Source: Anaerolineales bacterium
Lineage (GTDB): Bacteria; Chloroflexota; Anaerolineae; Anaerolineales; Villigracilaceae
DNA: 50,059 bases
Assembly (NCBI GenBank): GCA_013140605.1
Contig: JABFSL010000033.1
Coordinates: forward strand, 1-50,059
Reading direction: 5' to 3'
Under the pieces are notes generated by a model, which saw only the letters and a program-made list of their open reading frames with translations, had not been told where the DNA came from and did no database searches. Each line of letters starts with the position of its first letter. The first letter of the stretch is position 1. Shown piece after piece: positions 4,149-49,000 of this stretch. Made by a program: the position numbers and the translations under genes.

Positions 4149-4182
4149 GGTCAAAATCCTGTTTTATATTGCATAAAGAAAA

Positions 4183-4329
4183 CTCCGAAGGAGTGGAATG
4201 ATTATAGATTTTCAAATGAATTTTCCAAACCCCAACGGGGTGGCATGGGTTGAAAAGAACTGTGTCATCCCTTCGGGATTGGATGCGGGCTTCGCTTCTT
4301 TTCTATAATCCTTTCATCCCTTCGGGATT
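4183..4329. repeat. Composite repeat cluster, copy 1
   Basis: Four short palindromes lie in a row: CTCCGAAGGAGTGGAATGATTATAG (4183-4207), AACCCCAACGGGGTGGCAT (4228-4246), a TCATCCCTTCGGGATTGGA unit (about 4265-4283) and a CTATAATCCTTTCATCCC-type unit (4303-4329). The last overlaps the stop codon of the carboxyltransferase gene. The same set in the same order occurs on the opposite strand at 42670-42819, and a single unit at 33151-33170. Confidence 0.85.
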
Positions 4330-5950
4330 ACATCCTGAACACGCCGAATCCGCCTTCTTCTTTTGGCGAATTCAAAACGATGGATAAAGCCAACCCCAAC
4401 ACCTGCCGCGTTTCATCGGGGGCAATGACTCCATCATCCCAAAGACGTGCAGAGGAGTGATAGGGACTGCCTTCGGTTTCGTATTTTTCCAATAATGGAC
4501 GTTTGAACTCGTCCGCTTCTTCCTGGCTGAGGGTTGGTTTGCCCTCTCGAGCGAGTTGATCTTGTTTGATGGTTAAGAGCACGTTCGCGGCTTGCTCTCC
4601 GCCCATGACGGAGATGCGTGCATTGGGCCACATCCACAGGAAACGGGAGCCGTAGGCGCGGCCTGCCATGGCGTAGTTGCCTGCGCCGAAGGAGCCGCCG
4701 ATGACGAGGGTCAATTTTGGGACGCGGGTCGTGGCAACGGCATGAACCATCTTCGCGCCATCTTTGGCGATGCCGCCTGTTTCATATTCCTTGCCGACCA
4801 TGAAGCCTGTGATGTTTTGCAGGAACAGCAATGGGATTCCACGCTGGTCACAAAGTTCGATGAAGTGAGTCCCTTTGAGAGCAGACTCGCTGAACAGCAC
4901 GCCGTTGTTGGCGATGATGCCGACGGGGTAGCCGTGAATGCGGGCAAAGCCACAGACGAGCGTGGTGCCGTAACGCGCTTTGAATTCGCGAAACTTGGAA
5001 CCGTCCACGATGCGGGCGATGATCTCGCGGACATCGTAGGACTCTTTGAAGGTGCGCGGCAGGACGCCGTACAATTCGTCAGGGTTGTATAAAGGTTCTT
5101 CGGGGGGAGCAACTTCCAGCGCGGAAAGATGCGAGTGGACGTGTCCTCGGGGCAGAGTCTCTACGATCGAGCGAAGAATCTCAATGGCATGATCATCATC
5201 CTCGGCGAAATGATCCGCAACACCGCTCTTGCGGGTGTGGACATCTGCGCCGCCCAATTCTTCGGCAGTGACATCCTCGCCCGTGGCAGCTTTGACGAGA
5301 GGCGGGCCGCCAAGAAAAATAGTGCCCGCGCCTTTGACAATGATGGCCTCATCGCTCATCGCAGGGACGTACGCGCCGCCCGCGGTGCAGCTGCCCATGA
5401 CGGCGGCAATCTGCGGAATGCGCTTGGCAGACATGCGCGCCTGATTGTAAAAAATGCGTCCGAAGTGATGCGCGTCGGGGAAGACCTCATCCTGCAGCGG
5501 CAGATACGCGCCGCCCGAATCGACGAGATACAAACAAGGCAGATGATTTTCCTCGGCGACCTGTTGCGCGCGCAAATGCTTTTTGACGGTCATCGAAAAA
5601 TATGAACCGCCTTTGACGGTGGCGTCGTTGGCAACGATCATCACTTCGCGGTTGGAAATTCGTCCGATGCCTGTGACGATGCCTGCGCATGGCGCTTCAT
5701 TGCCGTACATGTTTGTTGCAGCCAGCGCGGAGAGTTCGAGGAACGGCGCGCCAGGGTCGAGCAGACGTTCGATGCGTTCGCGCACGAAGAGCTTGCCCTG
5801 CTCTTCATGTCGCTTGCGGTATTTCTCGCCGCCGCCTTCACGGACGAGGGCAAGCCGCTTCTTCAATTCACTCGCGAGGGCGCGGTTGTGTTCTGCATTG
5901 GCTTTGAATTCGGGGGATTGCGGGTCGAGCGCGGAGGAGAGAGTTTCCAT
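4328..5950 (-). CDS. Acyl-CoA carboxylase carboxyltransferase (beta) subunit, 3-methylcrotonyl-CoA type
   Basis: The 540-residue protein is a complete biotin-dependent carboxyltransferase with N- and C-terminal crotonase-like halves. Motifs fit methylcrotonyl-CoA carboxylase beta subunits particularly well: [78 protein letters not shown], then [12 protein letters not shown] and [15 protein letters not shown]. It would transfer the carboxyl group from carboxybiotin to 3-methylcrotonyl-CoA, the biotin-dependent step of leucine degradation, in an alpha6beta6 complex with the split alpha subunit at 376-2554. A geranyl-CoA or other branched acyl-CoA substrate cannot be excluded. No other leucine-degradation gene is in the window. 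There is no clear Shine-Dalgarno sequence at the ATG. The stop codon lies inside a palindrome. Confidence 0.93.
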
Positions 5951-6056
5951 TTTTAGTTTGGTAGTCCCGTGGTCTAATGGTTGGATGATGGCAGTAAACA
6001 GTTATCAGTAAACAGTGTTGATGTGAGTCTAGCATAAAAAGGGGAGTTGAGGGATG

Positions 6057-6252
6057 AGTAATGAGTAACAAGTAACAAGGACTCGGCGATGGGCTGAGTC
6101 CTTTGCTTGTTCTCCATCCCATACGGTGGTTGAGTAGCCCTGAGCGTTCTTTGCGAAGGGCGTATCGAAACCACACCTTTGGATTTCAAGTTTACCTATC
6201 ATGCTGGTTTCGATACGGGCAAAAAGAGCATTTGCCCTACTCAACCAGCGGG
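6057..6252. repeat. Long repeat, copy 1: decayed terminator hairpin plus GGTTGAGTAG palindrome
   Basis: The first part (6057-6123) carries a GGACTCGGC/GCTGAGTCC hairpin (6079-6101). The second part (6124-6252) is a hairpin element with outer arms GGTTGAGTAG/CTACTCAACC and inner arms CGTATCGAAACCA/TGGTTTCGATACG. The whole of about 195 bases is repeated in direct orientation at 6786-6979, on the other side of the small gene 6448-6774. Confidence 0.88.
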
Positions 6253-6265
6253 GCTACATTTCACG

Positions 6266-6391
6266 ACGGTGGTTGAGTAGCCTTGCGTGTTCTTCGCAAG
6301 GCGTATCGAAACCACACCTTTGAATCTTAAGTTTACCTATCATTGCTGGTTTCGATACGGGCGGAAGAGCACCGCCCTACTCAACCAGCGG
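6266..6391. repeat. GGTTGAGTAG palindromic element, copy 2
   Basis: This is a second copy of the 125-base palindrome (outer arms GGTTGAGTAG and CTACTCAACC, inner arms CGTATCGAAACCA and TGGTTTCGATACG), 13 bases after copy 1 and in the same orientation, without the terminator-like hairpin. The gene-free stretch 5951-6447 consists almost entirely of copies 1 and 2, plus a short AT-rich stretch before each flanking gene. Confidence 0.88.
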
Positions 6392-6393
6392 AG

Positions 6394-6399
6394 TATAAT
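6394..6399 (+). promoter_or_regulatory. Putative -10 box for the small gene at 6448
   Basis: A TATAAT hexamer lies 2 bases after the end of palindrome copy 2 and 48 bases before the ATG at 6448. No convincing -35 hexamer is visible at 16-18 bases, because that position lies inside the palindrome arm. The element may therefore supply part of the promoter. Confidence 0.4.
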
Positions 6400-6447
6400 T
6401 TCGATTGATCAGCGCAAGAAAAGCTACCAAAGCCGAAAAGAAAAAAT

Positions 6448-6774
6448 ATGAAAACAACTAGGAAAAAGAAAAACGAAGAAATGCGCGCGGAATATGACTT
6501 TAGCAAAGCCGAGTGTGGAAAGTTTTACCGTCCGCTGGATAAAGGCTATACCGTTCATGTGACAAAAAAAGACGGGACGACTGAGGTCAAGCACTACACC
6601 CTTGCAGAAGGGGCAGTCCTGCTTGCGCCCGATGTCCTGGAGTATTTTCCCGATTCGGAGTCGGTCAATGAGGCACTGCGTTCGCTCATTCAATTGATGG
6701 ACAAAATGCCTGCGAAGAAATACAAGCAAAAGAAATCGATGGCGTTTCAGGTGGCAGAGGGGAAAAGAGAATAG
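6448..6774 (+). CDS. Conserved hypothetical protein, EYDFSKA/FPDSESVNEAL family
   Basis: This is a 108-residue, charged, soluble protein. It starts with a Lys-rich MKTTRKKKNEEMRAEYDFSKAE segment, continues with a beta-rich part (YTVHVTKKDGTTEVKHYTLAEGAVLLAPDVLEYFPDSESV) and ends with a Lys-rich tail. I recall EMRxEYDFSK...VFPDSxSVNEALRxLI as a widespread family of small proteins in cyanobacteria and Chloroflexota with no assigned function. The opening resembles antitoxins that start EEYDFS, but the second half is different and no toxin gene adjoins it. It is alone on its strand, bounded by direct copies of a roughly 195-base repeat, and ends in a strong terminator. The C-terminal extension after LIQLMDK appears specific to this copy. 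Confidence 0.75.
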   Translation: MKTTRKKKNEEMRAEYDFSKAECGKFYRPLDKGYTVHVTKKDGTTEVKHYTLAEGAVLLAPDVLEYFPDSESVNEALRSLIQLMDKMPAKKYKQKKSMAFQVAEGKRE

Positions 6775-6785
6775 AAATGGTGAGT

Positions 6786-6979
6786 AAAAAGTAACAAGTA
6801 AAAAGGACTCAGCAATGGGCTGAGTCCTTTTTTTGTTCTCCATCCATGACGGTGGTCGAGTAGTTCCGAGCCGCTCTTCGGCGAGGAACGTATCGAGACC
6901 ACACCTCTGCATTTTGTATTTACCTATCATTGCTGGTTTCGATACGGGCGGAAGAGCACCGCCCTACTCAACCAGCGGA
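6786..6979. repeat. Long repeat, copy 3: intact terminator plus GGTTGAGTAG palindrome
   Basis: This is a direct repeat of 6057-6252. It has the same GTAACAAGTA lead, GGACTC hairpin and TGTTCTCCATCC spacer, then the palindrome at 6849-6979 (arms GGTCGAGTAG and CTACTCAACC). It ends 10 bases before the stop codon of the STAND ATPase gene. Confidence 0.88.
6805..6834 (+). terminator. Rho-independent terminator of the small gene
   Basis: A perfect 9-bp stem GGACTCAGC (6805-6813) and GCTGAGTCC (6819-6827) with loop AATGG is followed directly by seven T (6828-6834). It lies 31 bases after the stop codon of the gene at 6448-6774. The equivalent hairpin in repeat copy 1 has lost its T-run. Confidence 0.9.
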
Positions 6980-6988
6980 GTTAACTTT

Positions 6989-9409
6989 TTATTTCAAACT
7001 TTCCAACATGGCAACTGCTTCCTCATACGCTACCTTGTAATAATACGGCGGACCGTCACAATAGGCCAGTTTCAGCGCGGACTCGGCATATTCCTTTGCC
7101 TTGACTTTATCCTTCTCCTGCTCCAGCGCGTATTGGGCAAGGAAGAGATTCACATCCGCCCCCTGCAAGACATACCCGCTGCGCTCCGTGATCACCAGCG
7201 CCTCGGACGCTTTTTCCTGCGCATCTTTGAAATCGCCCTGCGCATAACGCAACCGCGCCAGGTCGAGCAGGATGTCGGCTTCATGCTCAACATTATTGAT
7301 TTGCCGACAGAGATTGAGCGCTTTGGACAGGTTTTCTTCTGCCAGAGTCAATGCGTTATTGGCACGATATGCCGCACCAAGTAGCCAGTGAGCACGAACA
7401 TACTCACGTAGAACAGGGGAATTTGCTTGTGTATCTTTATCTGCGAACTCAAGAGCGCGAAATGCACATTCGATTGATAATTTTAGACTTAAGGCTTTAG
7501 ATTGGGAATTTGCGCGGGCTAACAACAGGAAATACAGTGCGCGAATAGCCCAAATCACACCTTGTCTCTGGATATGCTTTTCATTTTCAAGTATCTTTAA
7601 TGTTTTAGATTGTTCTTGTTCTGTTTCTTGCCACTTTCCACAATAGGCTAATACACGAGATAATTGGCAATGACCATTACCTTCTTGAATTTTTTTGTCA
7701 ATCTCACGGCATAAGTCAATACTAAGGCGCAAATTTCGCTCCGCATCCACAAGTGCGCCAATATGTAATTGCGCTTGCGCCATATTGCTTAAACCTATAG
7801 CAGCGCTTTCATTAGCGGCATGTGCTTCACGAATAGCAATTTGCATTTTGTAAAGCGTTATAGCATGGCTTGGTTGTCCGCTTAGTAAATAGGCGGTGGC
7901 AAGCGTGTTAAGTACCCATGCTTGCCATGATTCACTTTTCAAGTTAGGTGCTTCATTTTCGCCATCATTAAATAAAGCGCCTAACAATTCAATAACTTGC
8001 TGATAAGAACAAAATTGAAAATATAAAGGATTGGTCAAGCGGTCATCAAATAAAATTATGGCTTCATCCAAATTCCCCACCCTGACCATGTGATGATACA
8101 GTTCGATCACGGGCGCGAGATCTTCCAGTGTGGTCACTGTTTGGGGTTTGGGAACAGCCTTGAAGTAGTTTACAAGGCGGGTGTGTGCATTCGTTTTATC
8201 AGGCGTGGCAAATTTATCGTAGGCATAATGCCGCACGATCGGGTGCATATCGTAGTGTTGAGACTCGCCCGCGTATTGCAGCAGTCCGCGCTTGCGCAGG
8301 TCAAGCAGGGCTTTGTCCAGGTCGGCGCTGGGGAACACCTTTTTGAGCACGGCGTATTCCATCGAGCCGCGAAAGCAGGAAATCTTGCTCAGCAAATCCC
8401 TGCGCTCGGGGGCTAAACTTTCATACGCGCGTTCCAACACGTGATGTCGTCTGGCTTTCACGTCCTCAAAGATTTCAAGATTCTTCACCGCCGCAATATC
8501 GCCGCGATGTTCATGGTCTTCGTTGATCAAACCGACCAGCAGGCTCAAACTCAACGGGTGATAGCCGTACGCGGAACAGGCAGCGATAATCTCCGCGCGC
8601 GTGGCTTTTATCCCTTCGTTGTGGAAGTACGTCACCGCATCCTCGGGCGAGAAGGCGGAGAGCGCCTCCTCACGGCAGCCTTTGAGCAGTTTGCCGTCGG
8701 CGCTCTCCAACACGCGCGGACACAGGCGCGTGGTCATCAAGACTTTGGAGCGCATGCCCGCGCCGCTCAAGCCGCGCAGGAAGGTTTCCGTCAACGGGGA
8801 GGAGCAATCGCGCTGGGATGGGTCAATGTCAGCATCCTCGTCATCGCTTTGCAACGCGGCATCCATCCTTCCATATTGACGCAGCAAGCGTTCGAAGCCA
8901 TCCAGCACGATCAGGATGTTCGTCCCGCGCAGCGCTTCCAACAGATCATTGACCTGCTGCCGCGCCGACTCTTTGACCTCCACGCCGAGATGTTTCAGCG
9001 TCTCGGACAGAAAACTCTCAAAGCCCGATTCCTTTTCATAGAACGACCACCAGACTGCCGTCGGCCATTTCTCACGGTGGACGCTGTTGAACCACGTCCA
9101 CGCCAGTGCGGATTTGCCAAATCCACCCAGGGCGCGGAGCATGAGCAGGTTGTCTTTATCGTTATTCAGCCATGCATTGAGCATGTCCATTTCAGCGGCG
9201 CGGCCTGTGAAGGTGTCCAAGTCACCGTAGCGATGGCCGTAGAACCAACCCGTATGAAACGCAACTTGCTTACCGCCTATGATGATAACGTTATTGTTGC
9301 CAACGATGATATTGCTGTCAATAACATTTCCCTCAATGTGAACATTCCCCTGCGTCCCCACGGGCTTTTCATGCGCTGTTGAGTTTTGCGAACCTGTATC
9401 ATCTGCCAT
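6989..9409 (-). CDS. STAND ATPase: NB-ARC-like domain with C-terminal TPR repeats
   Basis: This 806-residue protein has NLR-like architecture. Residues 20-50 contain an Asn/Gly/Ile-rich stretch (GNVHIEGNVIDSNIIVGNNN), a short N-terminal module often seen before STAND or caspase domains in filamentous bacteria. The NTPase follows: Walker A GGFGKSAL (95-102), Walker B ILIVLDGFE (165-173), sensor MTTR (about 225-228), a GxP-type GYHPLSL (about 282-288) and an MHD-like MHPIVR (388-393). From about 435 to the end are TPR-type helical pairs (ATAYLLSGQPSHAITLYK, LARLRYAQGDFKDAQEKASEAL). There is no enzymatic effector domain, transmembrane segment or DNA-binding domain that I can see. It could be a signal-dependent oligomerising sensor, for regulation or phage defence, but that is inference. 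I prefer the ATG at 9409, with AGG 5 bases upstream, over the TTG at 9427. Confidence 0.88.
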   Translation of the reverse strand: MADDTGSQNSTAHEKPVGTQGNVHIEGNVIDSNIIVGNNNVIIIGGKQVAFHTGWFYGHRYGDLDTFTGRAAEMDMLNAWLNNDKDNLLMLRALGGFGKSALAWTWFNSVHREKWPTAVWWSFYEKESGFESFLSETLKHLGVEVKESARQQVNDLLEALRGTNILIVLDGFERLLRQYGRMDAALQSDDEDADIDPSQRDCSSPLTETFLRGLSGAGMRSKVLMTTRLCPRVLESADGKLLKGCREEALSAFSPEDAVTYFHNEGIKATRAEIIAACSAYGYHPLSLSLLVGLINEDHEHRGDIAAVKNLEIFEDVKARRHHVLERAYESLAPERRDLLSKISCFRGSMEYAVLKKVFPSADLDKALLDLRKRGLLQYAGESQHYDMHPIVRHYAYDKFATPDKTNAHTRLVNYFKAVPKPQTVTTLEDLAPVIELYHHMVRVGNLDEAIILFDDRLTNPLYFQFCSYQQVIELLGALFNDGENEAPNLKSESWQAWVLNTLATAYLLSGQPSHAITLYKMQIAIREAHAANESAAIGLSNMAQAQLHIGALVDAERNLRLSIDLCREIDKKIQEGNGHCQLSRVLAYCGKWQETEQEQSKTLKILENEKHIQRQGVIWAIRALYFLLLARANSQSKALSLKLSIECAFRALEFADKDTQANSPVLREYVRAHWLLGAAYRANNALTLAEENLSKALNLCRQINNVEHEADILLDLARLRYAQGDFKDAQEKASEALVITERSGYVLQGADVNLFLAQYALEQEKDKVKAKEYAESALKLAYCDGPPYYYKVAYEEAVAMLESLK

Positions 9410-14109: not shown

Positions 14110-14133
14110 AAATTCACCTTTAACCTTCAACTT

Positions 14134-14358
14134 TCAAACCTTCTCATACACAAACACCTGGATATCCATCCCATCATTATTCAATAAATCCATCGCTGGC
14201 ATAAAAGTCGCATCCTTGATGGCCTGCATATCGCCCGCAGGCGCATAGACCGAGAGCCGCGCCTCCTCATCAGACATCTTCGCAACCTTCACTTCCGCGC
14301 TTGTGCACGCGGCCAGGATCGTATCGGTCATTTGTTTGATGGCATCGTCAATCGACAT
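14134..14358 (-). CDS. Small conserved hypothetical protein downstream of mutS2
   Basis: This 74-residue acidic protein (MSIDDAIKQMTDTILAACTSAEVKV, then SVYAPAGDMQAIKDATFMPAMDLLNNDG) has an alpha-beta pattern and no membrane segment. The ATG at 14358 has GGAG 6 bases upstream. It follows mutS2 by 10 bases and precedes the operon terminator, so the two are co-transcribed. I do not recognise a family; the size and fold pattern would fit a small ferredoxin-fold or regulatory protein. A role linked to MutS2 is possible only on the basis of position. Confidence 0.7.
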   Translation of the reverse strand: MSIDDAIKQMTDTILAACTSAEVKVAKMSDEEARLSVYAPAGDMQAIKDATFMPAMDLLNNDGMDIQVFVYEKV

Positions 14359-14368
14359 AAGCAACTCC

Positions 14369-16792
14369 TTATCCGCTCTTCATCAACGCCACGGTCACGC
14401 CTTCGCCGCCTTCGGTGCTCCCGCCCTCTTCAAACTTATTGACATACTCATGACCGCGCAGCGCCTCACGCACAGCCTGCCTTAATCTGCCCGTTCCCTT
14501 GCCGTGAATGATCCGCACGAAAGGCAATCCTGAAAGAAATGCCTGCTCCAAATATCTTTCCATTTTATCCAGCGCATCTTCCGCCATCAACCCGCGCAAA
14601 TCTACTTCCATGCCGGGAGAAGACGATTGACGGTGGACCGTAGACGATGTCTGACTGATGACGGTCTTCGGTCTATCGTCCACGGTCTGTTGTCGCCTGA
14701 CCAGATCAGACAACCTCGCCCGCATACGGATCGTCCCGATCTGCACTTCCGCATCCGACTCACCCAAAGCTGTCACAACACCTTCAGCATTCAACGTGCT
14801 GACAGTAACCCGCTCACCGAGCGACAATTGACGATGGACGGTGGATGGTCCACGGTCTATCGTCTGTCGTCGCACTACCGGCGCTTCAACTTTCTCTTCT
14901 ATCTTTTCTATCTTCTCTTCAATTAATTTAATAGCTTCAAGCGGCTGTTTCGCCTTCTTCAATTGTTGTTTGAGCGAATCCATATTCTGTTTGAGTACCG
15001 CTACTTCCAACTCACCTTCGGCGCGGGCCTTTGCCAAAGTTTCACGGCGTTCATCTTCTATTTTCTCGAGTCGCTTTTCAAGGTCATGCGATTGTGCTTC
15101 CAATTTGGCGCGCGCTTTTTCCAGCTTCTCGCGTTCGCGTGAGGTGCGGTTGCGTTCCTTGCGGATATCATCCAATAATTTATCTGCCCGCAGATCCAGC
15201 GGATTAATTTCCGCTCTGGCTGAGTCAATGATGGGTTGCGGCAGGCCAAGCTTCTGCGCGATCAACAAGGCGTTGGACCTGCCCGGGAGACCAAGAGTCA
15301 GCTTATAGGTCGGGCGAAGCGTTTTGATGTCAAATTCCAAAGACGCATTGACCACGCCATCCGTCCCATGAGCGAAAGTTTTTAATTCAGGATAATGCGT
15401 TGCCACCAGCGTCATCGCGCCTACATCCAGTAAATGACTCAATATCGCGCGTGCAATGGCCGCGCCTTCCTGCGGATCTGTGCCTGAACCGAGCTCATCA
15501 AAAATAACCAGCGAACGATTGTCTATCTTTTTGATAATGCGAATGATATTCGTGATGTGTCCGCTAAAAGTGGAAAGCGACTGCTCAATGGATTGCTCAT
15601 CACCAATATCCGCCCACACCGAATGGAAGCACGGAAGTTCCGATCCACTTTGCGCGGGGATGTGCAAACCGCTTTGCGCCATCACCACCAGCAAGCCAAC
15701 CGTTTTTAGCGAAACCGTTTTACCGCCGGTGTTCGGACCGGTAATTACAATCGCACGCGTACCGGGCGCAGGGTCAACATCAATAGGGACAACGTTGTTG
15801 GAATCAAGCAGGGGATGGCGCGCATTCAACAAGCAAATACGCGTTTGGCTTTTAGCGCTTGGCTTTTGGCCTTCTGCTTTTGCTAATTGCTGATTGCCAA
15901 TTGCTAAAAGCTGATTTAATATCGGCTCACTCGCCTTCAATTCATCTGCATATTTCGCCTTCGCAAATGCGAGGTCTAGTGCCGCAAGATTCTCAACACC
16001 ATATTTCAACTCTGTGGCATGTTCGCCTATCAACGCGGATACCTGCGCGAGGATTCTGCGTTCTTCATCGCGTTGTGCCAGTTGCAATTCGCGGATCTCA
16101 TTATTCGCTTCCACAACAGGCAATGGCTCAACGAACAGAGTCGCGCCGCTGGAGGATTGATCGTGAATGATGGATTTTATTTTGCCTTTGAATTCCGCGC
16201 GCAACGGAATGACATAACGCCCATCGCGTTGTGTGATGATCGGCTCCTGCAGCATCGAAACCGTTTTTGAGTCGGTTACATATTTTTGCAGGCGTGCCAT
16301 CAGACGGTCTTGTGCCACGCGCAAACCGCGACGAATGTCTCCAAGTTTGGGAGACGCCGAATCCAAAATTTCGCCACGATCTGAAAGGATGCGCGTGATG
16401 GAATCCACGAGACCGTGAGTATCAGGCAGACCCAATACAATTTGTGTCAGGCGTGGATATTCTTCCGCTCGTTTTTCAAACGATTTTTTTATGTCACGGC
16501 ATGAGATCAGTGTTGACTTAACGTCGAGCAAAGCGTGCGGGTCGAGCACACCGCCGCGCGCGGCAAGGTCCGCTTGCGGGCGGATGTCATGCGCCGCGCC
16601 GACGCCTGTGCTTTCCATCGAAAGCAGTTTGCGCGCTTCGGTCGTCTCTGCAATGCGGGCAATTGCCAACTCGTAGGAAGAGGTTGGCTCCAACTCGCGC
16701 GCCAGATCCATTGATGCAGAGAAATCACAGAAGCCTGCAAGCTGCCCGAGAATTTTTGGGTATTCGAGTACGTTGAGAGTCTTGCTGTCCAT
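14369..16792 (-). CDS. mutS2: Endonuclease MutS2 with Smr domain
   Basis: The 807-residue protein has the MutS2 order: core/lever region (DIRPQADLAARGGVLDP, SPKLGDIRRGL, QRDGRYVIPLRAEFKG, GATLFVEPLPVVEANNEIREL), Walker A GPNTGGKT (352-359), Walker B LVIFDELGSGTDPQEG, the ABC signature region STFSGH, a long coiled coil (about 520-635) and a C-terminal Smr nuclease domain (VDLRGL near 727, HGKGTGRLR). MutS2 acts on branched DNA and collided ribosomes rather than in mismatch repair. Three stretches are encoded by repeat-like DNA: residues about 293-318 before CLLNARHPLLD, and two linkers at about 640-658 and 699-723 between coiled coil and Smr. There is no Shine-Dalgarno sequence; TATAAT lies 8 bases before the ATG, so the mRNA is probably leaderless. 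Confidence 0.95.
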   Translation of the reverse strand: MDSKTLNVLEYPKILGQLAGFCDFSASMDLARELEPTSSYELAIARIAETTEARKLLSMESTGVGAAHDIRPQADLAARGGVLDPHALLDVKSTLISCRDIKKSFEKRAEEYPRLTQIVLGLPDTHGLVDSITRILSDRGEILDSASPKLGDIRRGLRVAQDRLMARLQKYVTDSKTVSMLQEPIITQRDGRYVIPLRAEFKGKIKSIIHDQSSSGATLFVEPLPVVEANNEIRELQLAQRDEERRILAQVSALIGEHATELKYGVENLAALDLAFAKAKYADELKASEPILNQLLAIGNQQLAKAEGQKPSAKSQTRICLLNARHPLLDSNNVVPIDVDPAPGTRAIVITGPNTGGKTVSLKTVGLLVVMAQSGLHIPAQSGSELPCFHSVWADIGDEQSIEQSLSTFSGHITNIIRIIKKIDNRSLVIFDELGSGTDPQEGAAIARAILSHLLDVGAMTLVATHYPELKTFAHGTDGVVNASLEFDIKTLRPTYKLTLGLPGRSNALLIAQKLGLPQPIIDSARAEINPLDLRADKLLDDIRKERNRTSREREKLEKARAKLEAQSHDLEKRLEKIEDERRETLAKARAEGELEVAVLKQNMDSLKQQLKKAKQPLEAIKLIEEKIEKIEEKVEAPVVRRQTIDRGPSTVHRQLSLGERVTVSTLNAEGVVTALGESDAEVQIGTIRMRARLSDLVRRQQTVDDRPKTVISQTSSTVHRQSSSPGMEVDLRGLMAEDALDKMERYLEQAFLSGLPFVRIIHGKGTGRLRQAVREALRGHEYVNKFEEGGSTEGGEGVTVALMKSG
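14624..14697. repeat. GACGATGG-type repeat inside mutS2, linker 2
   Basis: In-frame DNA made of permutations of GACGGT, GTCCAC and TCTATCGTC, with internal palindromy. It encodes about 25 polar residues (QTVDDRPKTVISQTSSTVHR) just before the Smr domain. It resembles 14821-14875 and the non-coding stretch at 16813-16866 upstream of the same gene. Confidence 0.75.
14821..14875. repeat. GACGATGG-type repeat inside mutS2, linker 1
   Basis: This second in-frame copy (GACGATGGACGGTGGATGG and CCACGGTCTATCGTC) encodes RRQTIDRGPSTVHRQL. The peptides from the two copies share R-Q-T-[IV]-D and S-T-V-H-R-Q, showing insertion in the same reading frame and orientation. Confidence 0.75.
15841..15915. repeat. 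Simple-sequence insert in the mutS2 ATPase region
   Basis: In-frame run of AGC-TTTTGGC / GCTAATTGC-type units encoding QLLAIGNQQLAKAEGQKPSA and a few more residues. It lies directly before the conserved RICLLNARHPLLD segment, where other MutS2 proteins (from memory) have only a short connection. Confidence 0.65.
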
Positions 16793-16800
16793 AATGGTGA

Positions 16801-16806
16801 ATTATA
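16801..16806 (-). promoter_or_regulatory. -10 box of a probable leaderless mutS2 promoter
   Basis: A consensus TATAAT on the reverse strand ends 8 bases before the ATG of mutS2. Transcription would start at or next to the A of the start codon. This agrees with the absence of a Shine-Dalgarno sequence. Confidence 0.6.
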
Positions 16807-16812
16807 CTTGCA

Positions 16813-16866
16813 TCAGACCGTTGACCGTAGACCACAGACCATCGTCCACTGTCTGTGGTCCATGGT
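16813..16866. repeat. Non-coding member of the GACCGTAGACC repeat family
   Basis: Palindromic stretch (GACCGTAGACCACAGACCATC, then GTCTGTGGTCCATGGTC) in the spacer between mutS2 and the SDR gene. It is related in sequence to the two in-frame inserts in mutS2. It is also translated in a spurious upstream extension of the SDR frame. Confidence 0.7.
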
Positions 16867-16891
16867 CATTCATTTTGGGATAGGAGATCAT

Positions 16892-17699: not shown

Positions 17700-17724
17700 C
17701 CACAAAATGAATGGAGAGACTCAC

Positions 17725-17982
17725 ATGAACATGGTTCGCACACAAATAGTAAAAATCGGCAACTCGCGCGGAGTTCGTTTACCCAAGCTGTTGATTGACC
17801 AAATGGGTTTTGACAATGAAGTAGAAATCCTTGTTCAACGCGGGCAGCTCGTTCTGCGCCCTGTTGCTCTCCCGCGCCGCGGCTGGGATGAACAATTCAA
17901 GGCCATGGCAAAAAACGGCGACGACCGCCTTATTGACGAACCCGCAACCACAAAATGGGACAGAAGCGAGTGGAAATGGTAG
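17725..17982 (+). CDS. mazE: MazE-type antitoxin (AbrB/SpoVT fold)
   Basis: This 85-residue protein has the swapped-hairpin DNA-binding domain MVRTQIVKIGNSRGVRLPKLLIDQMG...VEILVQRGQLVLRP, a clear MazE/AbrB signature. The acidic and aromatic C-terminal tail (DRLIDEPATTKWDRSEWKW) is the part that would bind and block the toxin. GGAGAG lies 8 bases before the ATG at 17725; an upstream ATG at 17707 precedes that Shine-Dalgarno sequence and is less likely. Its stop overlaps the toxin start by 7 bases, so the two are translationally coupled. It probably represses its own promoter through the palindrome over the -10 box. Confidence 0.92.
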   Translation: MNMVRTQIVKIGNSRGVRLPKLLIDQMGFDNEVEILVQRGQLVLRPVALPRRGWDEQFKAMAKNGDDRLIDEPATTKWDRSEWKW

Positions 17983-18299
17983 TCAAGCGGTTTGAAGTTT
18001 ACTTGATCAATCTTGACCCAACCATCGGACACGAGATCAAGAAAACGCGCCCCTGCCTAATCATTTCTCCCGACGAAATGAACCATCATATTTCCACTGT
18101 CATCGTAGCGCCAATGACTTCGCAGGGACGATCCTATCCGACGCGCGTGGCGTGCCGCTTTCAAGGCAAGAGCGGACAAATTGTTCTCGACCAAATCAGG
18201 ACTGTGGATAAAGAGAGATTGGTCAGGAAGCTGGGACAGATCAGCGCCACTGCACAGGAATCTGTGCTTGCGGTTTTGGCGGAAATGTTCGCGGAATAA
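17976..18299 (+). CDS. mazF: MazF-type endoribonuclease toxin
   Basis: This 107-residue protein of the PemK/MazF family has VKRFEVYLINLDPTIGHEIKKTRPCLIISPDEMN at the start, VIVAPMTSQ with YPTRV in the middle and GQIVLDQIRTVDKERLVRKLG near the end. The Arg in KKTRP and the Thr/Ser in APMTS are the usual active-site residues of MazF. It should cleave single-stranded mRNA at a short motif when the antitoxin is degraded, stopping growth. The start ATG 17976 lies in the last codons of mazE (ATGGTAG), and all core motifs are intact, so it appears active. A longer frame from 17955 is an alternative but lies inside mazE. Confidence 0.94.
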   Translation: MVVKRFEVYLINLDPTIGHEIKKTRPCLIISPDEMNHHISTVIVAPMTSQGRSYPTRVACRFQGKSGQIVLDQIRTVDKERLVRKLGQISATAQESVLAVLAEMFAE

Positions 18300-18980: not shown

Positions 18981-20045
18981 TCAATCCAGTGAATTCAACG
19001 CCAGCACAAACGCATCCGCCATCTTTTGGATGTTGATCTCTTCCGAAACAATTCGAAACGACTCCGCCCCCATTCTTCGTAAACGCGCTGTATCAGACAG
19101 CGCGTTTTTCATTGCAGTAACCAGCGCGCCGTAATCATCTGGATTGATCTGCCAGCCATTCCCCTCGCGGACAAGATCGTCCTGCGTGCCATCTCCCTTC
19201 GCCACGATGACTGGAAGACCGTGACTCATCGCCTCCTGGACAGCCAACCCCCCGGTTCCGGGCAGAACGAATAAGTCTGCTTCTGCAAAATAGGGTTTGA
19301 TCTCAGCCCCGTGTTTGGCTCCGGCAAACTCTGCGGCAGGATACACATCCCTGGCAAGTGACTCTAATGCCGCGCGTTCCGGTCCATCACCAACGATTAT
19401 CAAACGCGGTTTCGATTCCATTTCGGCACAGGCGCGCAATAATGAATCAATGCGCTTTCGAGCTTGTAATCTTCCTACAAATAATATAGTTGGTTGAAGG
19501 TTAAATGTTGAAGGTTGAAGGTCGAAGGTCGGTGCTGGCGAGGCTGAGTTATGTGCGACAAATATTTTTTCACGCGGGAAACCAAGCGCCGCATATTCCT
19601 CCGCGCCGCGTTGACTGTATGCGAGCATTGCGTCAAATTGATTGATAAAACGTGACCAAACTGCATTGCCTTTTGGCGCGCCCAATCCCCAGCCAATGAC
19701 TCCTCGTCCGCGAGAGTGCATCCATCTAATTGCAGATGGAGTGGACAGGTAGCGCGGATTCGCTTCCACAATCAGCGAATCAGGATTCCATTCTTCAAGC
19801 CAGCTTATAAATCCATTTTGATAACATAGATAAAATGCGCCGCTGAACAAATGAATATTTTTTGCTTCGTGATATTTTGCGATTTGAAGTTTGCCGCTTG
19901 CGATCATTTCCACGGGGCGCGGCATTCCCGCAAAAAGACTCATACTTTCGCAGGATTGAGCAAGCAAATCAAAGAACGGGATGCGGTAACTGGGAAGCAC
20001 GCGTTGTTGCAGAGCAAGTCGTCTTGAATATTTGATCATTGACAT
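18981..20045 (-). CDS. Glycosyltransferase, GT4-like (GT-B fold)
   Basis: The 354-residue protein has a divergent N-terminal half (acceptor side) and a clear C-terminal GT4-type donor domain: TILFVGRLQARKRIDSLLRAC, LIIVGDGPERAALESLA, the PYFAEADLFVLPGTGGLAVQEAMSHGLPVIV signature with its Glu, and a C-terminal helix. It would transfer a sugar from a nucleotide donor to an unknown acceptor, probably a lipid or cell-surface glycan. Residues 172-186 (FDLQPSTFNLQP) are encoded by a tandem TTGAAGGT-type repeat in the linker between the two domains. The upstream GT-C-like gene ends with TGA overlapping ATG 20039 (ATGA), so either 20045 or 20039 is the start. The two are co-transcribed and probably act on the same glycan. 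Confidence 0.87.
   Translation of the reverse strand: MSMIKYSRRLALQQRVLPSYRIPFFDLLAQSCESMSLFAGMPRPVEMIASGKLQIAKYHEAKNIHLFSGAFYLCYQNGFISWLEEWNPDSLIVEANPRYLSTPSAIRWMHSRGRGVIGWGLGAPKGNAVWSRFINQFDAMLAYSQRGAEEYAALGFPREKIFVAHNSASPAPTFDLQPSTFNLQPTILFVGRLQARKRIDSLLRACAEMESKPRLIIVGDGPERAALESLARDVYPAAEFAGAKHGAEIKPYFAEADLFVLPGTGGLAVQEAMSHGLPVIVAKGDGTQDDLVREGNGWQINPDDYGALVTAMKNALSDTARLRRMGAESFRIVSEEINIQKMADAFVLALNSLD
19491..19531. repeat. TTGAAGGTTGAAGG tandem repeat inside the glycosyltransferase gene
   Basis: Tandem units of GTTGAAGG/GTCGAAGG lie in frame in the interdomain linker. Related tracts occur in spacers at 14112-14131 (CACCTTTAACCTTCAACTTT) and 48944-49000, so this is one of the simple repeats that otherwise sit between genes. 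Confidence 0.7.
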
Positions 20046-27241: not shown

Positions 27242-28114
27242 ATGAATGAGCAGTTAAGTGACACTTCGCGACATCAGCAGGTTTCCTGGATTTTGTTACT
27301 AGGGCTTCTGTTTCTAAGAATCCCGCTCATAGCGATATTGAAGTATTTCCGTGTGGAATTAGATTGGATAGATGCAATTGTTAGGATTGGAACTTATTCA
27401 CTAACCGTATTTATGATCTGGTGGGAAATAGACCACCTTGCCGAATTCCATATTGATACGTTTGTAATAATGATTGTTATTTTATTCGGACCAATTCAGA
27501 CTCTAATTTGGAGTTACTGGAAATTAACTCGCTTACTTGTTTTTCCAAATATTCCCAGTTTGATTATCTGGTTAATCTCGATTGTGTTTGCCTTTGCACT
27601 CTGGAGAGATCGCTCGAGAGTGCCTCAATTAAAACCTGCCAGCTTGAAATGGTTTTTTATTGGGACATTAGTGGGGTTAGTTGCGTCCAGCGTTCTGAGT
27701 TTTCCTTTTTCATTTCAAATCTTATCAGAACAAGTGTCGTATGGAGGATCAGTAAAGGCTGTTCTCGTTGACATCCTTGCTGATATTCCACTCGACTTTG
27801 TTAATCAGATAGGTTATGCCGCCGTGATTGAAGAACCGCTCTTTCGCGGTTTCTTATGGGGACATCTCAAAAAATTGGATTGGCATGAAAAATGGATATG
27901 GTTGTTTCAGGCTGGCTTGTTTACATTGGGTCATTTTTATTACATAAATACAGATCCAATTTTGTTTTGGATGATTATCCCTGTTAATGCGCTCGTGTTT
28001 GGGTGGCTTGCTTGGCGTTCAAGAACACTTGCATCCAGCATGGCGGCACATGGCATAATAAATTCTACGGGATATTCTTTTGCGTATCTTGTGGCCTTGT
28101 TCAGACTTGGATAA
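27242..28114 (+). CDS. CPBP-family intramembrane metalloprotease, copy 1
   Basis: The 290-residue membrane protein has about eight helices and the CAAX protease/bacteriocin-processing (Abi/CPBP) motifs EEPLFRGFLWG (motif 1, EExxxR), LFTLGHFYY (motif 2, FxxxH) and SSMAAHGIINSTG (motif 3, HxxxN/D). It should cleave a membrane-embedded or lipid-anchored substrate; members serve in bacteriocin immunity, protein processing or signalling. I prefer ATG 27242, with GAGAG 6 bases before it and alignment to the start of copy 2, over 27206, which overlaps the transporter stop. It is a close paralogue of the next gene: the C-terminal half, including WIWLFQAGLFTL and NALVFGWLAWRSRT, is nearly the same. 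Confidence 0.9.
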   Translation: MNEQLSDTSRHQQVSWILLLGLLFLRIPLIAILKYFRVELDWIDAIVRIGTYSLTVFMIWWEIDHLAEFHIDTFVIMIVILFGPIQTLIWSYWKLTRLLVFPNIPSLIIWLISIVFAFALWRDRSRVPQLKPASLKWFFIGTLVGLVASSVLSFPFSFQILSEQVSYGGSVKAVLVDILADIPLDFVNQIGYAAVIEEPLFRGFLWGHLKKLDWHEKWIWLFQAGLFTLGHFYYINTDPILFWMIIPVNALVFGWLAWRSRTLASSMAAHGIINSTGYSFAYLVALFRLG

Positions 28115-28144
28115 TGTTCATCAAAACGCGAACACCCATTGCGC

Positions 28145-28198
28145 GAGTCCGAGCAGGAAAATAAAGATGGAGTCCATTCACATGAGCATGAGGAATGA
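28145..28198 (+). pseudogene. Remnant of a His-rich tail between the protease copies
   Basis: Read from GAG at 28145, this non-coding stretch gives ESEQENKDGVHSHEHEE and then a stop. The end matches the C-terminus of the EamA transporter (HGHEE, stop). The same text recurs at 29114-29167. It is best explained as the left end of a duplicated unit that included the end of a tail-encoding gene plus a protease gene. The terminal GAGGAATGAGG also supplies the Shine-Dalgarno region for the next gene. Confidence 0.7.
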
Positions 28199-28213: not shown

Positions 28214-29077
28214 ATGAATCAAACACTTGACAATAGCGGATCAAAACATCAGCGAGTATTTTGGTTTGCACTGCTGGGGCTTTTGATTTTGCGGATTCCT
28301 TTTCTGACGGGCATGCACTTCTTCAATATCCAATGGACGTGGACGGATATAATTTTCGATATAGGGACTTATCTACTGACCACATTTCTAGTTTGGTGGG
28401 AAATAGATCATCTCGCTGATTATCATATTGACACCTTGGCTGTGATTATCGTTATATTATTCAAGCCTATTCAAACGTTAATTCTGAGATATTGGGGGCT
28501 CAATCACTTACTTAAGTTCCCCAGCATTCCCGGTATGATTATTTGGCTAATTGCGATTGTTTTCTCAATAGCAATGTGGAGAAAACGCTCCAGGCTCCCT
28601 GGCATAAAACCTGTTAATTTAGGTTGGCTTTTTATCGGAGCATTGGCCGGTTTGGTAACAGCCATTGTCTTAAGTTTTCCCATGTCATTTCAAATAACCA
28701 CAGATTTACTTTCTTACAGATATTTTATAGACAAGTTTCTGCCTCAAATCCTGCCAAGTTTTGTTTATCAGATTGGCTATGCTGCAGTATCAGAAGAACC
28801 CCTCTTTCGCGGCTTTTTATGGGGCTATCTGAGCAAATTGAAATGGCGTGAACATTGGATATGGTTGTTTCAGGCTGGCTTATTTACATTGAGCCATTTT
28901 TACTACCTAAACACCAATCTGATTTCGATTTGGATTATCGTACCTGTTGGCGCACTCGTGTTCGGATGGCTTGCCTGGCGCTCAAGAACAATTGCTTCGA
29001 GTATGGTCGCACATGGAATGATGAATGCGACGGGATATGCTTTTGGTTATCTAATGGCACTTTGGCGGCTTGGATAA
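28214..29077 (+). CDS. CPBP-family intramembrane metalloprotease, copy 2
   Basis: This 287-residue paralogue of the preceding gene keeps all active-site motifs: EEPLFRGFLWG, LFTLSHFYY and SSMVAHGMMNATG. The topology is the same (about eight helices), and the loops WWEIDHLADYHIDTLAVIIVILFKPIQTLI and WRSRT are shared with copy 1. The middle (residues about 150-190) differs most, so the two may cleave different substrates or form a heteromer. A strong Shine-Dalgarno region (GGAGGAGAGG) lies 6 bases before the ATG. It is separated from copy 1 by 99 bases containing the tail remnant. Both copies look functional, which argues for selection rather than decay. Confidence 0.9.
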   Translation: MNQTLDNSGSKHQRVFWFALLGLLILRIPFLTGMHFFNIQWTWTDIIFDIGTYLLTTFLVWWEIDHLADYHIDTLAVIIVILFKPIQTLILRYWGLNHLLKFPSIPGMIIWLIAIVFSIAMWRKRSRLPGIKPVNLGWLFIGALAGLVTAIVLSFPMSFQITTDLLSYRYFIDKFLPQILPSFVYQIGYAAVSEEPLFRGFLWGYLSKLKWREHWIWLFQAGLFTLSHFYYLNTNLISIWIIVPVGALVFGWLAWRSRTIASSMVAHGMMNATGYAFGYLMALWRLG

Positions 29078-29113
29078 AAAGAGTCGAAGCAGAATCAGCC
29101 TCACCCGTAGAAA

Positions 29114-29167
29114 GAGTCCGAGCAGGAAAATGAAGATGGAGTCCATTCACTTGAACATGAGGAATAA
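29114..29167 (+). pseudogene. Second remnant of the His-rich tail
   Basis: From 29114 the frame gives ESEQENEDGVHSLEHEE and a stop at 29165-29167, nearly identical to 28145-28198 at DNA level. The preceding TAG closes the frame just upstream, so nothing longer is made. A shorter trace (GCGAGCAGGAAAATGA) lies at about 30234-30249, after the next gene. Confidence 0.7.
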
Positions 29168-42624: not shown

Positions 42625-42669
42625 TTATTTTCAGTCCGCATTCCACAAATATCTCGAACTACTAACTGC

Positions 42670-42819: not shown

Positions 42820-42853
42820 TTGTTTCCGGGTAACATCAGTTGGTAAAAAACAA

Positions 42854-47361: not shown

Positions 47362-47394
47362 AATCCAAAATCCAAAATCGCAAATCGTAAATTG

Positions 47395-48930
47395 TCATTC
47401 CCACTCAATTGTCGCGGGCGGTTTACTCGTAATATCATACACTACCCGATTAATTCCGTCCACTTCATTAACAATTCGGCTGGATACTTTCGCCAGTAGT
47501 TCATGCGGCAGGCGCGCCCAATCGGCGGTCATAAAATCCTCGGTGGTCACCACGCGGATCGCGGCTGCCTCCTGATACGTGCGCTGGTCGCCCATCACGC
47601 CCACAGATTTGACGGGGAGCAAAACCACGAATGCCTGCGAAGCTGAGCCGCCTTTTCCTAAAACGCCTGCTTTGGATAATTCCTCCTGCAGGATAAAATC
47701 CGCCGCCCGCAGACGGGATACACGCTGCGGCGTACACTCCCCGAGACAGCGCACGGTCAAGCCTGGACCTGGGAACGGCTGCCGCCAAACGAGGCTTTCA
47801 CTCAGCCCGAGCGCTTCACCGACCAACCGAACTTCATCCTTGAATAAATAGCGCAATGGCTCAACGAGTTCAAAATCCATGTCTTCGGGAAGTCCGCCCA
47901 CGTTGTGATGAGACTTGATCTTTTCAGCCTTGCTTCGATCTGGCCCGGAAGACTCAACCACATCAGGATAAATTGTCCCCTGCACTAAAAATTTTGGCTT
48001 GCCAACACTCTTTGCTTCCCGCTCAAAAATGCGGATAAATTTCTCGCCGACGATCTTGCGCTTTTGCTCCGGGTCTGTGATTCCCTTCAACGCGCCGAGA
48101 AAATCATCGCTGGCTTCCACTGTAATTAATTCAACGCCAAGTCCGCCGCGCAATGCGGACGCGACCTGTTCGCCTTCTTTATGTCGCAGCAGTCCAGTAT
48201 CCACAAAAACGGTCACGAGTTGATCGCCAATCGCTTTATGCACCAACGCCGCCGCAACCGTTGAATCCACGCCGCCGCTGACAGCCGCAAGCACACGTTC
48301 CTTTCCAACCTGCTCACGAATCCGTTTGACGCTTGCTTCAATAATGGAGGAGGGAGTCCAGTCAGGTTTGACTCTGCAAATATCAGTTGCAAAATGTTTG
48401 AGCAGTTCAGTCCCATTGGGTGTGTGATGTACTTCTGGATGAAACTGCACACCAAAATATTTCCTCTGCATATCGCCCATTGCCGCGAAGGGACTGTTGC
48501 CCGATTTCGCCAATGCGACAAATCCATCGGGCATGCGTGTGATTCTGTCGCCGTGTGACATCCACACCTGCGAAAGCACGGACAAAATGGAAGGCATCAA
48601 TGGCTCCAAAATTGCCGAGCCATATTCACGCTCAGAAGACGGGCTGACTTCGCCACCGAGTACGTGGGTCAGGGCTTGCATCCCGTAGCAGATCCCAAGA
48701 ATGGGCAGGCCTGACTCTAAAATAAATTTTTGAATATACGGCGCATTCTCTTCATATACTGACTTTGGTCCACCGGAGAGGATGAATCCTTTGGGATTGA
48801 TCGAGAGGATTTTTTCCTGCGGCGAGTCCCACGGGAATAACTCACAATATACATTTGCTTCACGCACACGCCGCGCAATGATCTGCGCGTATTGCGAACC
48901 GAAATCGAGAATGGCAATGGATTCTGTCAT
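47395..48930 (-). CDS. guaA: GMP synthase (glutamine-hydrolysing)
   Basis: The 511-residue enzyme aminates XMP to GMP. It has the class-I glutaminase domain (ILDFGSQYAQIIARRVRE, GFILSGGPKSVY, nucleophile Cys81 in LGICYGMQ, His/Glu in QFHPEVHHT). The ATP-pyrophosphatase domain follows (AAVSGGVDSTVAAALV with the P-loop SGGVDS at 218-223, FVDTGLLRHKEGEQV), then the C-terminal dimerisation domain ending IVNEVDGINRVVYDITSKPPATIEWE. Length and motifs are normal. AGGA lies 7 bases before the ATG. It is followed by repeats rather than by guaB. With xpt close by, the region handles guanine nucleotide supply. Confidence 0.97.
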   Translation of the reverse strand: MTESIAILDFGSQYAQIIARRVREANVYCELFPWDSPQEKILSINPKGFILSGGPKSVYEENAPYIQKFILESGLPILGICYGMQALTHVLGGEVSPSSEREYGSAILEPLMPSILSVLSQVWMSHGDRITRMPDGFVALAKSGNSPFAAMGDMQRKYFGVQFHPEVHHTPNGTELLKHFATDICRVKPDWTPSSIIEASVKRIREQVGKERVLAAVSGGVDSTVAAALVHKAIGDQLVTVFVDTGLLRHKEGEQVASALRGGLGVELITVEASDDFLGALKGITDPEQKRKIVGEKFIRIFEREAKSVGKPKFLVQGTIYPDVVESSGPDRSKAEKIKSHHNVGGLPEDMDFELVEPLRYLFKDEVRLVGEALGLSESLVWRQPFPGPGLTVRCLGECTPQRVSRLRAADFILQEELSKAGVLGKGGSASQAFVVLLPVKSVGVMGDQRTYQEAAAIRVVTTEDFMTADWARLPHELLAKVSSRIVNEVDGINRVVYDITSKPPATIEWE

Positions 48931-48943
48931 TTATTATTCCTGG

Positions 48944-49000
48944 GTCAAAGGTTGAAAGTCAAAAGTCAAAGGCAGACTTTAGACCTTTGACTTTTGACCT
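48944..49000. repeat. AAAGTCAAAGG inverted repeat, partly coding for the HIT protein C-terminus
   Basis: AAAAGTCAAAGG (48961-48972) and CCTTTGACTTTT (48984-48995) form a perfect 12-bp stem, preceded by GGTCAAAGGTTGAAAGTC. The right arm provides the last codons of the HIT gene (GQKSKV, stop), so the repeat supplies the natural C-terminus. It may also act as a terminator for the xpt-HIT transcript. Confidence 0.75.

Follow-up and report, generated by a model that had tools for sequence, protein, structure and literature searches.

Introduction

Degenerate heptads are known from the cyanobacterial STRR and small dispersed repeats and from the stems of a Nostoc tRNA-Leu intron, in a non-coding or intron setting. 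The arrays described here share with them the complementary heptad stems and the occurrence of more than one heptad class per place, and differ from them in filling coding slots. REP/REPIN palindromes with RAYT (Y1) transposases are likewise short and dispersed, as are our arrays, and the genome studied here has seven Y1_Tnp matches; however, a tandem heptad register, the hallmark of our arrays, is not known to be part of the REP/REPIN definition, and the arrays show no proximity to Y1 genes beyond chance.

The closest described systems are the bacterial heptamer repeats and the Rickettsia palindromic elements. Heptamer repeats of the GGGAATC type occur in Xanthomonas and Nostoc (PMC4692102) and those of the TAACTGA type in Beggiatoaceae, Cyanobacteria and Bacteroidetes (PMC4679880); according to these reports, the arrays are tandem 7-nt units with several families per genome, sometimes as inverted pairs, as they are here. 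PMC4692102 notes the heptamer excess in bacterial genomes with little mechanism, and both reports stress intergenic arrays, whereas ours also form part of the reading frame in the loop regions of conserved genes, with the family at one slot differing from species to species. Rickettsia palindromic elements, according to a review (PMC10969869), are ~150 bp long with a conserved peptide per family, and are repeated palindromes in frame within unrelated genes. In-frame arrays within unrelated genes are seen here as well, but they occupy ~50–100 nt per slot, consist of short degenerate heptads of many families whose peptides vary by family and species, and undergo replacement at fixed slots. In a literature text search of partial coverage, no report of heptad arrays within coding regions of Chloroflexota came up. 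Our arrays vary in a new way on two kinds already described, heptamer repeats and palindromes that encode protein.

Results and Discussion

The window, that is, the whole stretch of 50,059 nucleotides analyzed, contains a mutS2 gene whose product scores 841 bits against TIGR01069 (cut-off 400), with MutS_V at residues 348–531, MSSS at 659–697 and Smr at 730–805. The initial annotation had described three stretches of this protein as encoded by repeat-derived DNA and placed them in loops or linkers. Both points are confirmed: linkers I1–I3 are slots filled by tandem 7-nt repeat arrays in inverted pairs (Table 1), and the segments of low AlphaFold confidence (pLDDT <50) include residues 299–315, 629–653 and 702–725, which overlap I1, I2 and I3. 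The period-7 self-match score of I3 is only 8.2. The proposed match to the repeat upstream of the gene holds for I2 and I3, which are of the same GACNRTR family, but I1 belongs to another, GCNNTTR, and with at least two heptad families among them the three stretches are not copies of one element. Similarly, the peptide word STVHRQ occurs in both C-terminal sites as had been noted, while RQT[IV]D is exact only once and the other site reads RRQQTVDD.

Table 1. Genes, linker slots and heptad arrays located in the window
Feature	Position	Strand	Details
mutS2	14369..16792	-	807 aa; MutS_V, MSSS, Smr domains
Slot I1 (residues 293-319)	15836..15916	-	inverted pair of GCNNTTR heptads; arms with GC every 7 nt, 15841-15877(+) / 15882-15911(-)
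Slot I2 (residues 640-657)	14822..14875	-	inverted pair of GACNRTR heptads; arms with GAC every 7 nt, 14823-14839(+) / 14848-14871(-)
Slot I3 (residues 699-724)	14621..14698	-	inverted pair of GACNRTR heptads; arms with GAC every 7 nt, 14622-14645(+) / 14664-14694(-)
GACNRTR inverted pair upstream of mutS2, non-coding	16816..16867	.	arms with GAC every 7 nt, 16816-16839(+) / 16844-16867(-)
Glycosyltransferase-like gene	18981..20000	-	GTTGAAG heptad array at 19492-19531
Non-coding heptad array, AGTAACA type	6048..6079	.	period-7 scan
Non-coding heptad array, AGTAAMA type	6783..6805	.	period-7 scan
Non-coding heptad array, AACCTTC type	14113..14137	.	period-7 scan
Non-coding heptad array, AATCCAA type	47362..47395	.	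period-7 scan
Non-coding inverted pair GTCAAAG/GACTTTT	48943..48998	.	period-7 scan

A scan of the window at a score of at least 10 returns 10 segments of period 7, four of period 14 and 0–3 for every other period from 4 to 21, so that, as in the bacterial heptamer repeats, a tandem 7-nt unit is over-represented against other periods. Several of these places differ between genomes. The element upstream of mutS2 is of the same family in genome G016 (72 vs 72 nt), and G008 and G023 have unrelated, shorter sequence in its place. Within the 60-nt interval of the glycosyltransferase-like gene that holds GTTGAAG heptads here, G016 carries ATTGGTA heptads, and the inverted pair GTCAAAG/GACTTTT is of the GTTGAAG type in both arms in G016.

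The families are dispersed. The pattern GACN4GACN4GACN4GAC has 105 matches genome-wide vs 25 for the reversed pattern. As the latter also has a heptad register, with CAG every 7 nt, and gives signal in many genomes, such counts are no clean negatives; the other genomic copies expected from the initial annotation are present. By our own patterns these genomes hold about a dozen heptad families, some of which may be mere forms of others. The GGGAATY and TAACTGA types are again found among them, and helicase site 1 of loci L133–L136 encodes the words LSVIS and MTDN/ITDN, close to the peptides that PMC4679880 predicts for coding TAACTGA arrays. In a 450-kb sample, with genes predicted by a custom hexamer script, 33 period-7 arrays are found, 13 in predicted genes and 20 outside. 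Since predicted genes cover 87.5% of the sample, arrays are ~11-fold denser per base outside genes, in keeping with the mainly intergenic location of bacterial heptamer repeats. The 13 coding arrays are spread over 11 predicted genes (L065 and L076 lie at uncertain gene starts), and MutS2 is therefore not singled out. Array load is uneven: 100 kb of G021 contains no segment, yet its MutS2, MutL and helicase slots have repeats.

Such dispersal could be the work of mobile palindromes, each family being an element like those of Rickettsia, moved by a transposase in trans, with insertions filtered by selection into loops and old copies deleted. The architecture is defined and its polarity fixed, with all 23 two-armed GACNRNN loci among 100 of the 105 matches sharing polarity (family labels assigned by eye). 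One exact 21-nt arm, moreover, turns up at 23 unrelated places spread over 14 of the 46 genomes of the genus, the control giving none, and 14 of these places lie within stop-free frames of at least 1,000 nt. The MutL linker holds several heptad families side by side, and the genome has seven Y1 transposase matches. Against this, whole units are degenerate and are no copies of a master sequence, and slot lengths are close to those of outgroup loops, which argues for replacement rather than addition. An array lies within ~2 kb of only one of the seven Y1 matches, no more than average density predicts, and we reject Y1 (RAYT/IS200-type) transposases as the movers. We consider mobile palindromes unlikely, though the strongest of the alternatives.

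Confinement to linkers was assessed with a MutS2 search that gave matches in 60 of 61 genomes, at the level of MutS paralogues only in G006, G030 and G053 and as a 40-residue fragment in G036. Thirty MutS2 loci were retrieved, 28 of them from the same genus including two partial ones, L057 (stop-broken) and L058 (truncated); both count in the linker census and were left out of the hairpin tests, the linker/flank distance tests and the close-pair comparisons, and L057 also of the tree. In these 28 genes, all 49 period-7 segments fall inside the three linkers, which make up 10% of the MutS2 sequence, and none outside, with at least one segment in 23 genes. The corresponding inside/outside counts are 16/0 in 24 MutL genes and 30/3 in 21 helicase genes. 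The initial annotation had expected the inserts to be absent in relatives, but in same-genus species the slot is mostly filled by heptads as well, in many cases from a different family. Farther away the expectation holds: none of the 19 outgroup rows has a period-7 array at MutS2 sites 1 and 3 (all <10, maxima 8.4 and 6.6), and unrelated MutS2 proteins thus do without the arrays at both sites. The swapping of families is also seen in MutL, the DEAD/H helicase, the glycosyltransferase and an XPB-like gene. Non-heptad palindromes likewise occupy slots (helicase site 2 of G016 and I1 of L178), showing that the heptad register is not obligatory.

It had further been proposed that the elements are selected for keeping frame. 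As a property of the element this is not borne out, since arrays have similar numbers of open frames whether coding or not (mean 3.2 of 6 in predicted genes vs 3.4 of 6 outside). A weak frame constraint may exist because coding arrays are somewhat longer (43 nt vs 34 nt outside genes), but frame keeping needs no more explanation than that intact genes survive. Nor is hairpin strength the common denominator of the slots. Slot hairpins show no extra stability over same-length windows of the same genes, and only I1 and the two helicase loops exceed their composition shuffles (P 0.0001, 0.005 and 0.03), unlike I2, I3 and the MutL linker.

Families switch repeatedly at each site. On a tree of 44 rows, reduced from 55 by removing duplicate genomes with identical linkers, we count at least 17, 14 and 15 family changes at I1, I2 and I3 among 29, 35 and 34 labelled rows (raw counts, with labels assigned by patterns of our own; the tree has 41 inner branches, 14 of them weak). 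Slots are replaced whole. The 27 close pairs, which are not independent of one another, give 81 slot comparisons, of which 47 fall below 0.6 identity, 21 are kept (≥0.7) and 13 are intermediate, so the kept/replaced split is not clean; control blocks fall below 0.6 in 0 of 351 cases. L042 and L173, for example, have a core divergence of 2.1%, unrelated I1 and near-identical I2 and I3. Over 68,555 columns aligned to G016, G019 and G008, heptads occur in 9 of 45 hyper-divergent blocks, and as these nine fall at six known places (helicase sites 1 and 2, MutL, MutS2 I2 and I3, and the upstream element), the scan reveals no new slot.

The kept slots bear on polymerase slippage, by which arrays would be born and drift locally in 7-nt steps within merely permissive slots. 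The dominance of period 7 regardless of sequence agrees with it, and slippage is proposed for bacterial heptamers in PMC4692102 and PMC4679880. However, length is the same in 17 of the 21 kept slots and off by 3 or 6 nt in the other four, with no unit-number step of 7 or 21 nt in these coding slots compared between species rather than strains. Families are also shared between unrelated sites and across many species, and local slippage alone would not produce inverted pairs or a joint switch of both arms. We regard slippage as improbable.

Allelic exchange alone, in which the families would be old alleles shuffled among species by homologous recombination through conserved flanks, seems equally improbable. 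Linker distance barely tracks core distance (r = 0.13, 0.13 and 0.33), as such shuffling would have it, and the left flank of I1 in L173 has different synonymous sites, with a flank-to-core third-position divergence of 2.93. Yet flank distance is no more closely related to linker distance than background blocks are, apart from a weak signal on the left of I2 (0.096 vs a background maximum of 0.082). In pooled data, divergence in the flanks is higher around replaced slots than around kept ones (P 0.03), but the effect is confounded by site and absent at I3. The origin of so many families is also left unexplained. Flank import is clear in one pair only and is rejected as a general cause.

The words shared between slots suggest where replacements come from. 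An exact 11-mer is shared between different slots in 26 of 308 same-genome vs 412 of 8915 different-genome cases (permutation P 0.001); this excess fades with length (13-mers, P 0.018; 15-mers, P 0.081) and may in part reflect lineage-wide repeat composition. For I1, no recent intact donor is found in its own genome, the best second match being 83% over 39 nt (E 9.4e-4).

Conclusions

We favor, with a probability of about one half, the reading that the linkers are slots whose arrays are kept or swapped whole and refilled by copying from another array. Families are scattered through the genomes, more densely outside genes, with genic arrays surviving where an in-frame disordered peptide is tolerated. 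A slot array is mostly kept or exchanged entire, commonly for a heptad array of another family. The array, often an inverted pair, may act as a fragile site, and putative enzymes would refill the resulting gap by copying a second heptad array, in most cases one from the same genome, guided by the common 7-nt register and by short homology. Occasionally, the source may be a related strain, through short-patch recombination. Purifying selection on the host protein would then retain the in-frame, stop-free outcomes. The pool that supplies the replacement cassettes is probably genome-wide. Besides the confinement to linkers, the family switching and the whole-slot replacement, this reading is favored by the same-genome excess of shared 11-mers, the dispersed 21-nt arms, the uniform polarity of two-armed loci and the disorder of the slots; the lack of a donor match for I1, the fading of that excess in longer words, the hairpin results, the intermediate comparisons, the non-heptad palindromes and the uneven array load speak against it. 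More tentatively, and with somewhat less than even confidence, this could amount to a genome-wide cassette exchange on the 7-nt register, in which fragile arrays at fixed slots, some of them within core DNA-repair genes, are time and again lost and replaced by copies of another family from elsewhere in the genome, so that linkers are rewritten wholesale and flanks left untouched.

Orthologous slots come with flanks that can be aligned, with a clock and with dozens of species, which allows a direct count of how often arrays are kept, replaced or lost. In this Chloroflexota group, dispersed 7-base arrays encode flexible joints in MutS2, MutL and other core proteins, with different families at the same joint in different species, as if the DNA of these joints were exchangeable. 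If true, this would show clearly how dispersed repeats can rewrite linkers of core proteins whose genes stay open and conserved on either side.

Results and Discussion

The genome containing the window (G000) is a draft of 3.93 Mb in 132 contigs, and the closest named MutS2 records come from MAGs of uncultured Chloroflexota/Anaerolineales. As the initial annotation had proposed, all three unusual stretches of mutS2, which occupy linker slots I1, I2 and I3 (residues 293–319, 640–657 and 699–724), are repeat-derived, and each consists of inverted pairs of arrays with a 7-nt unit (heptad arrays). The single repeat envisaged there does not hold, since a GCNNTTR family accounts for site 1 and a GACNRTR family for sites 2 and 3 together with the spacer element; there are therefore two families rather than one.

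Features of the window
Feature	Position	Strand	Observation
mutS2	14369–16792	minus	Matches to TIGR01069, MutS_V, MSSS and Smr
Spacer element	16816–16867		GACNRTR family, shared with mutS2 sites 2 and 3
Non-coding pair	48943–48998		Both arms together differ from relative G016
Direct repeat families	6055–6993		Several, 30–105 nt, copies 66–89% alike; GTTGAGTAG/CTACTCAAC stems; some adjoin heptads
Three inverted repeat pairs	4181–4332 and 42667–42821		31–39 nt, 87–97% complementary, ~38 kb apart
Direct duplications	27797–28196 and 28760–29165		300 nt (79% alike) and 64 nt (88%), nearly equal spacing; probably tandem paralogous genes
Two small overlapping genes	17707–18299	plus	Presumably a MazE/MazF-type antitoxin-toxin pair, judged from translations

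Matching the window to itself at a 7-nt shift yields 10 segments with a score of at least 10, against 0–4 for other periods (the 4 being period 14). At score 11, a 400-kb sample of G000 holds 24 segments of period 7, 14 each of periods 14 and 21, 10 of period 9 and at most 7 of any remaining period. Both families have other genomic copies, as had been expected: GAC repeated four times at 7-nt spacing matches 105 times in the whole genome (reversed pattern, 25), and GCNNTTRGCNNTTRGCNNTTRGC matches 13 times, with some overlap between matches, at seven places that include MutS2 (reversed pattern, 6). Array load is uneven between genomes, with 100-kb samples containing none in G021 and three in G026; those of two genomes from other families of the order contain 0 and 3, the 3 not exceeding other periods. 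Phylum-wide, five such GAC units occur in 45 of 201 genomes, a count whose control pattern also has a heptad register.

Arrays are common within genes. In 450 kb surveyed, 13 of 33 arrays lie within predicted genes, which make up 87.5% of the sample, so that array density per base is ~11-fold lower inside them than outside. These 13 are spread over 11 genes, with two (L065 and L076) at doubtful gene starts. MutL matches TIGR00585 above the NCBIfam cut-off; below it fall a TIGR03817-like DEAD/H helicase with two arrays, NuoG/formate-dehydrogenase-like and NuoF-like proteins, an ABC ATPase, a decarboxylase/carboxyltransferase subunit, a glycosyltransferase and a weak XPB-helicase match, and two of the 11 genes gave no NCBIfam match. 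A 2,238-nt open frame in another genome (L252, G034:C23) carries a 21-nt CTTTCCT-type arm in frame within a His-rich segment (peptide KKKEER); by eye, its product looks like a complex I membrane subunit.

The idea that the repeats are selected for keeping frame is not supported by the frame counts: coding arrays are open in a mean of 3.2 of six frames versus 3.4 for the others, and in-frame survival therefore requires no special repeat property. An AlphaFold model of MutS2 built from 26 sequences has a mean pLDDT of 79. Its segments with pLDDT <50 include 299–315, 629–653 and 702–725, which correspond to the three slots; 400–404, 484–505 and 610–627 are also low.

Matches to MutS2 were obtained in 60 of 61 genomes (three at paralogue level only, one a fragment), to MutL in 40 of 41, and to the helicase in 41 of 41, some of these being paralogues only. 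Within the genus, period-7 segments number 49 in the linkers of MutS2 and 0 elsewhere (28 genes, 23 with at least one), 16 and 0 in MutL (24 genes, 15), and 30 and 3 in the helicase (21 genes, 16). Linker segments of period 14 number 25, 13 and 19, respectively, and remaining periods give few or none. The expected absence of arrays from relatives applies to the outgroups, where 19 MutS2 rows score <10 for period 7 at I1 and I3, but not to the genus, whose segments differ in family. Heptads were also seen by eye in helicase or MutL loops of some genomes from other families of the order (L130, L152, L157 and L158).

Among 44 rows, I1 is labeled GTYRAAR in 12, AAAGAAG and AATC in 4 each, AACGTTN in 3, GCNNTTR, GCAGAAN and GACSRTR in 2 each, and none in 15. 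Helicase site 2 holds AATCGTC, AAAGAAG/CTTTCCT, GGGAATY, AGTAAAA/TCTCACT or ATTACCA types, and in G016 a palindrome without heptads. Within one 60-nt interval of the glycosyltransferase gene, heptads are of GTTGAAG type in the window and of ATTGGTA type in G016. In the XPB-like gene, G000 carries AACGTTC, and G019 (L250) an arm of CTTTCCT type. Slot I1 of L178 contains a palindrome of another kind, GTAGGGGCGAAGCATGCTTCGCCCCTAC, and I1 of L034 and I3 of L179 contain CCCTGAGC..TCGAAGGG-type sequences amid heptads; the slots accept more than heptads. In G017, the MutS2 gene (L057, G017:C1:929793–935042) extends over several frames with an internal TGA, reflecting either a broken gene or a sequencing error.

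On a 44-row tree built from MutS2 without linkers, the minimum family changes are 17, 14 and 15 among 29, 35 and 34 labeled rows, counts that rest on our own pattern labels without a shuffle control. For 27 pairs with <16% core divergence, 81 slot comparisons give identities <0.6 in 47, 0.6–0.7 in 13 and at least 0.7 in 21; among 351 control blocks, each 26 codons long, none is <0.6 and the minimum is 0.67. L042 and L173, at 2.1% core divergence, are near-identical at I2 (0.93) and I3 (0.96) and unrelated at I1 (0.48). Of the 21 kept slots, 17 do not differ in length and the others differ by 3 or 6 nt. Slippage, proposed in PMC4692102 and PMC4679880 as the cause of the heptamer excess reported there for bacteria, appears quite improbable as the cause of array change. 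Across 68,555 columns aligned to three relatives, heptads occur in 9 of 45 hyper-divergent blocks, at six already known places.

Exact 11-mers are common to different slots in 26 of 308 comparisons within a genome and 412 of 8915 between genomes (P 0.001); the counts are 13 and 191 for 13-mers (P 0.018) and 6 and 83 for 15-mers (P 0.081). This same-genome excess fits a genome-specific pool, and lineage-wide composition could add to it. The 21-nt arm CTCTTTCCTCTTTCTTCTTTC has 23 exact places, spread over 14 of the 46 genomes of the genus, against 0 for the control; 14 of the 23 places lie in stop-free frames of at least 1,000 nt, some being one gene in two or three genomes. Among the matches listed, two-armed GACNRNN loci share one polarity (23 of 23), two-armed GACYTTY loci have the opposite polarity (3 of 3), and one arm alone is found at 43 more loci at the same stringency. 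A donor for the I1 sequence was not found. Transposition would be an unlikely source of array change, as Y1 transposases adjoin arrays no more than by chance. Linker distance correlates weakly with core distance (r 0.13, 0.13 and 0.33) and hardly at all with flank distance. Allelic exchange as the sole cause seems very doubtful; a single pair shows a change of the left flank together with the slot, and ordinary recombination therefore probably contributes.

Helicase site 1 in L133–L136, L145, L147 and L149 is a hairpin of TAACTGA/CAGTTAT type. PMC4679880 describes this heptamer from Beggiatoaceae and Cyanobacteria and predicts, for coding TAACTGA arrays, peptides that closely resemble those of site 1. 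Identical heptamer types recur in distant phyla. In-frame palindromes are known in Rickettsia (PMC10969869, a review, and PMC2635572). Partial literature coverage returned no report of in-frame heptads in conserved slots combined with family exchange.

Conclusions

We assign a probability of about one half to the whole of the following reading, in which heptad arrays constitute a genome-wide pool exchanged as whole cassettes. Such a pool would occupy loops tolerant of disorder, its arrays would be swapped in their entirety, and a copying step, in which a broken or stalled array is probably repaired from another array in 7-nt register, would accomplish the replacement.
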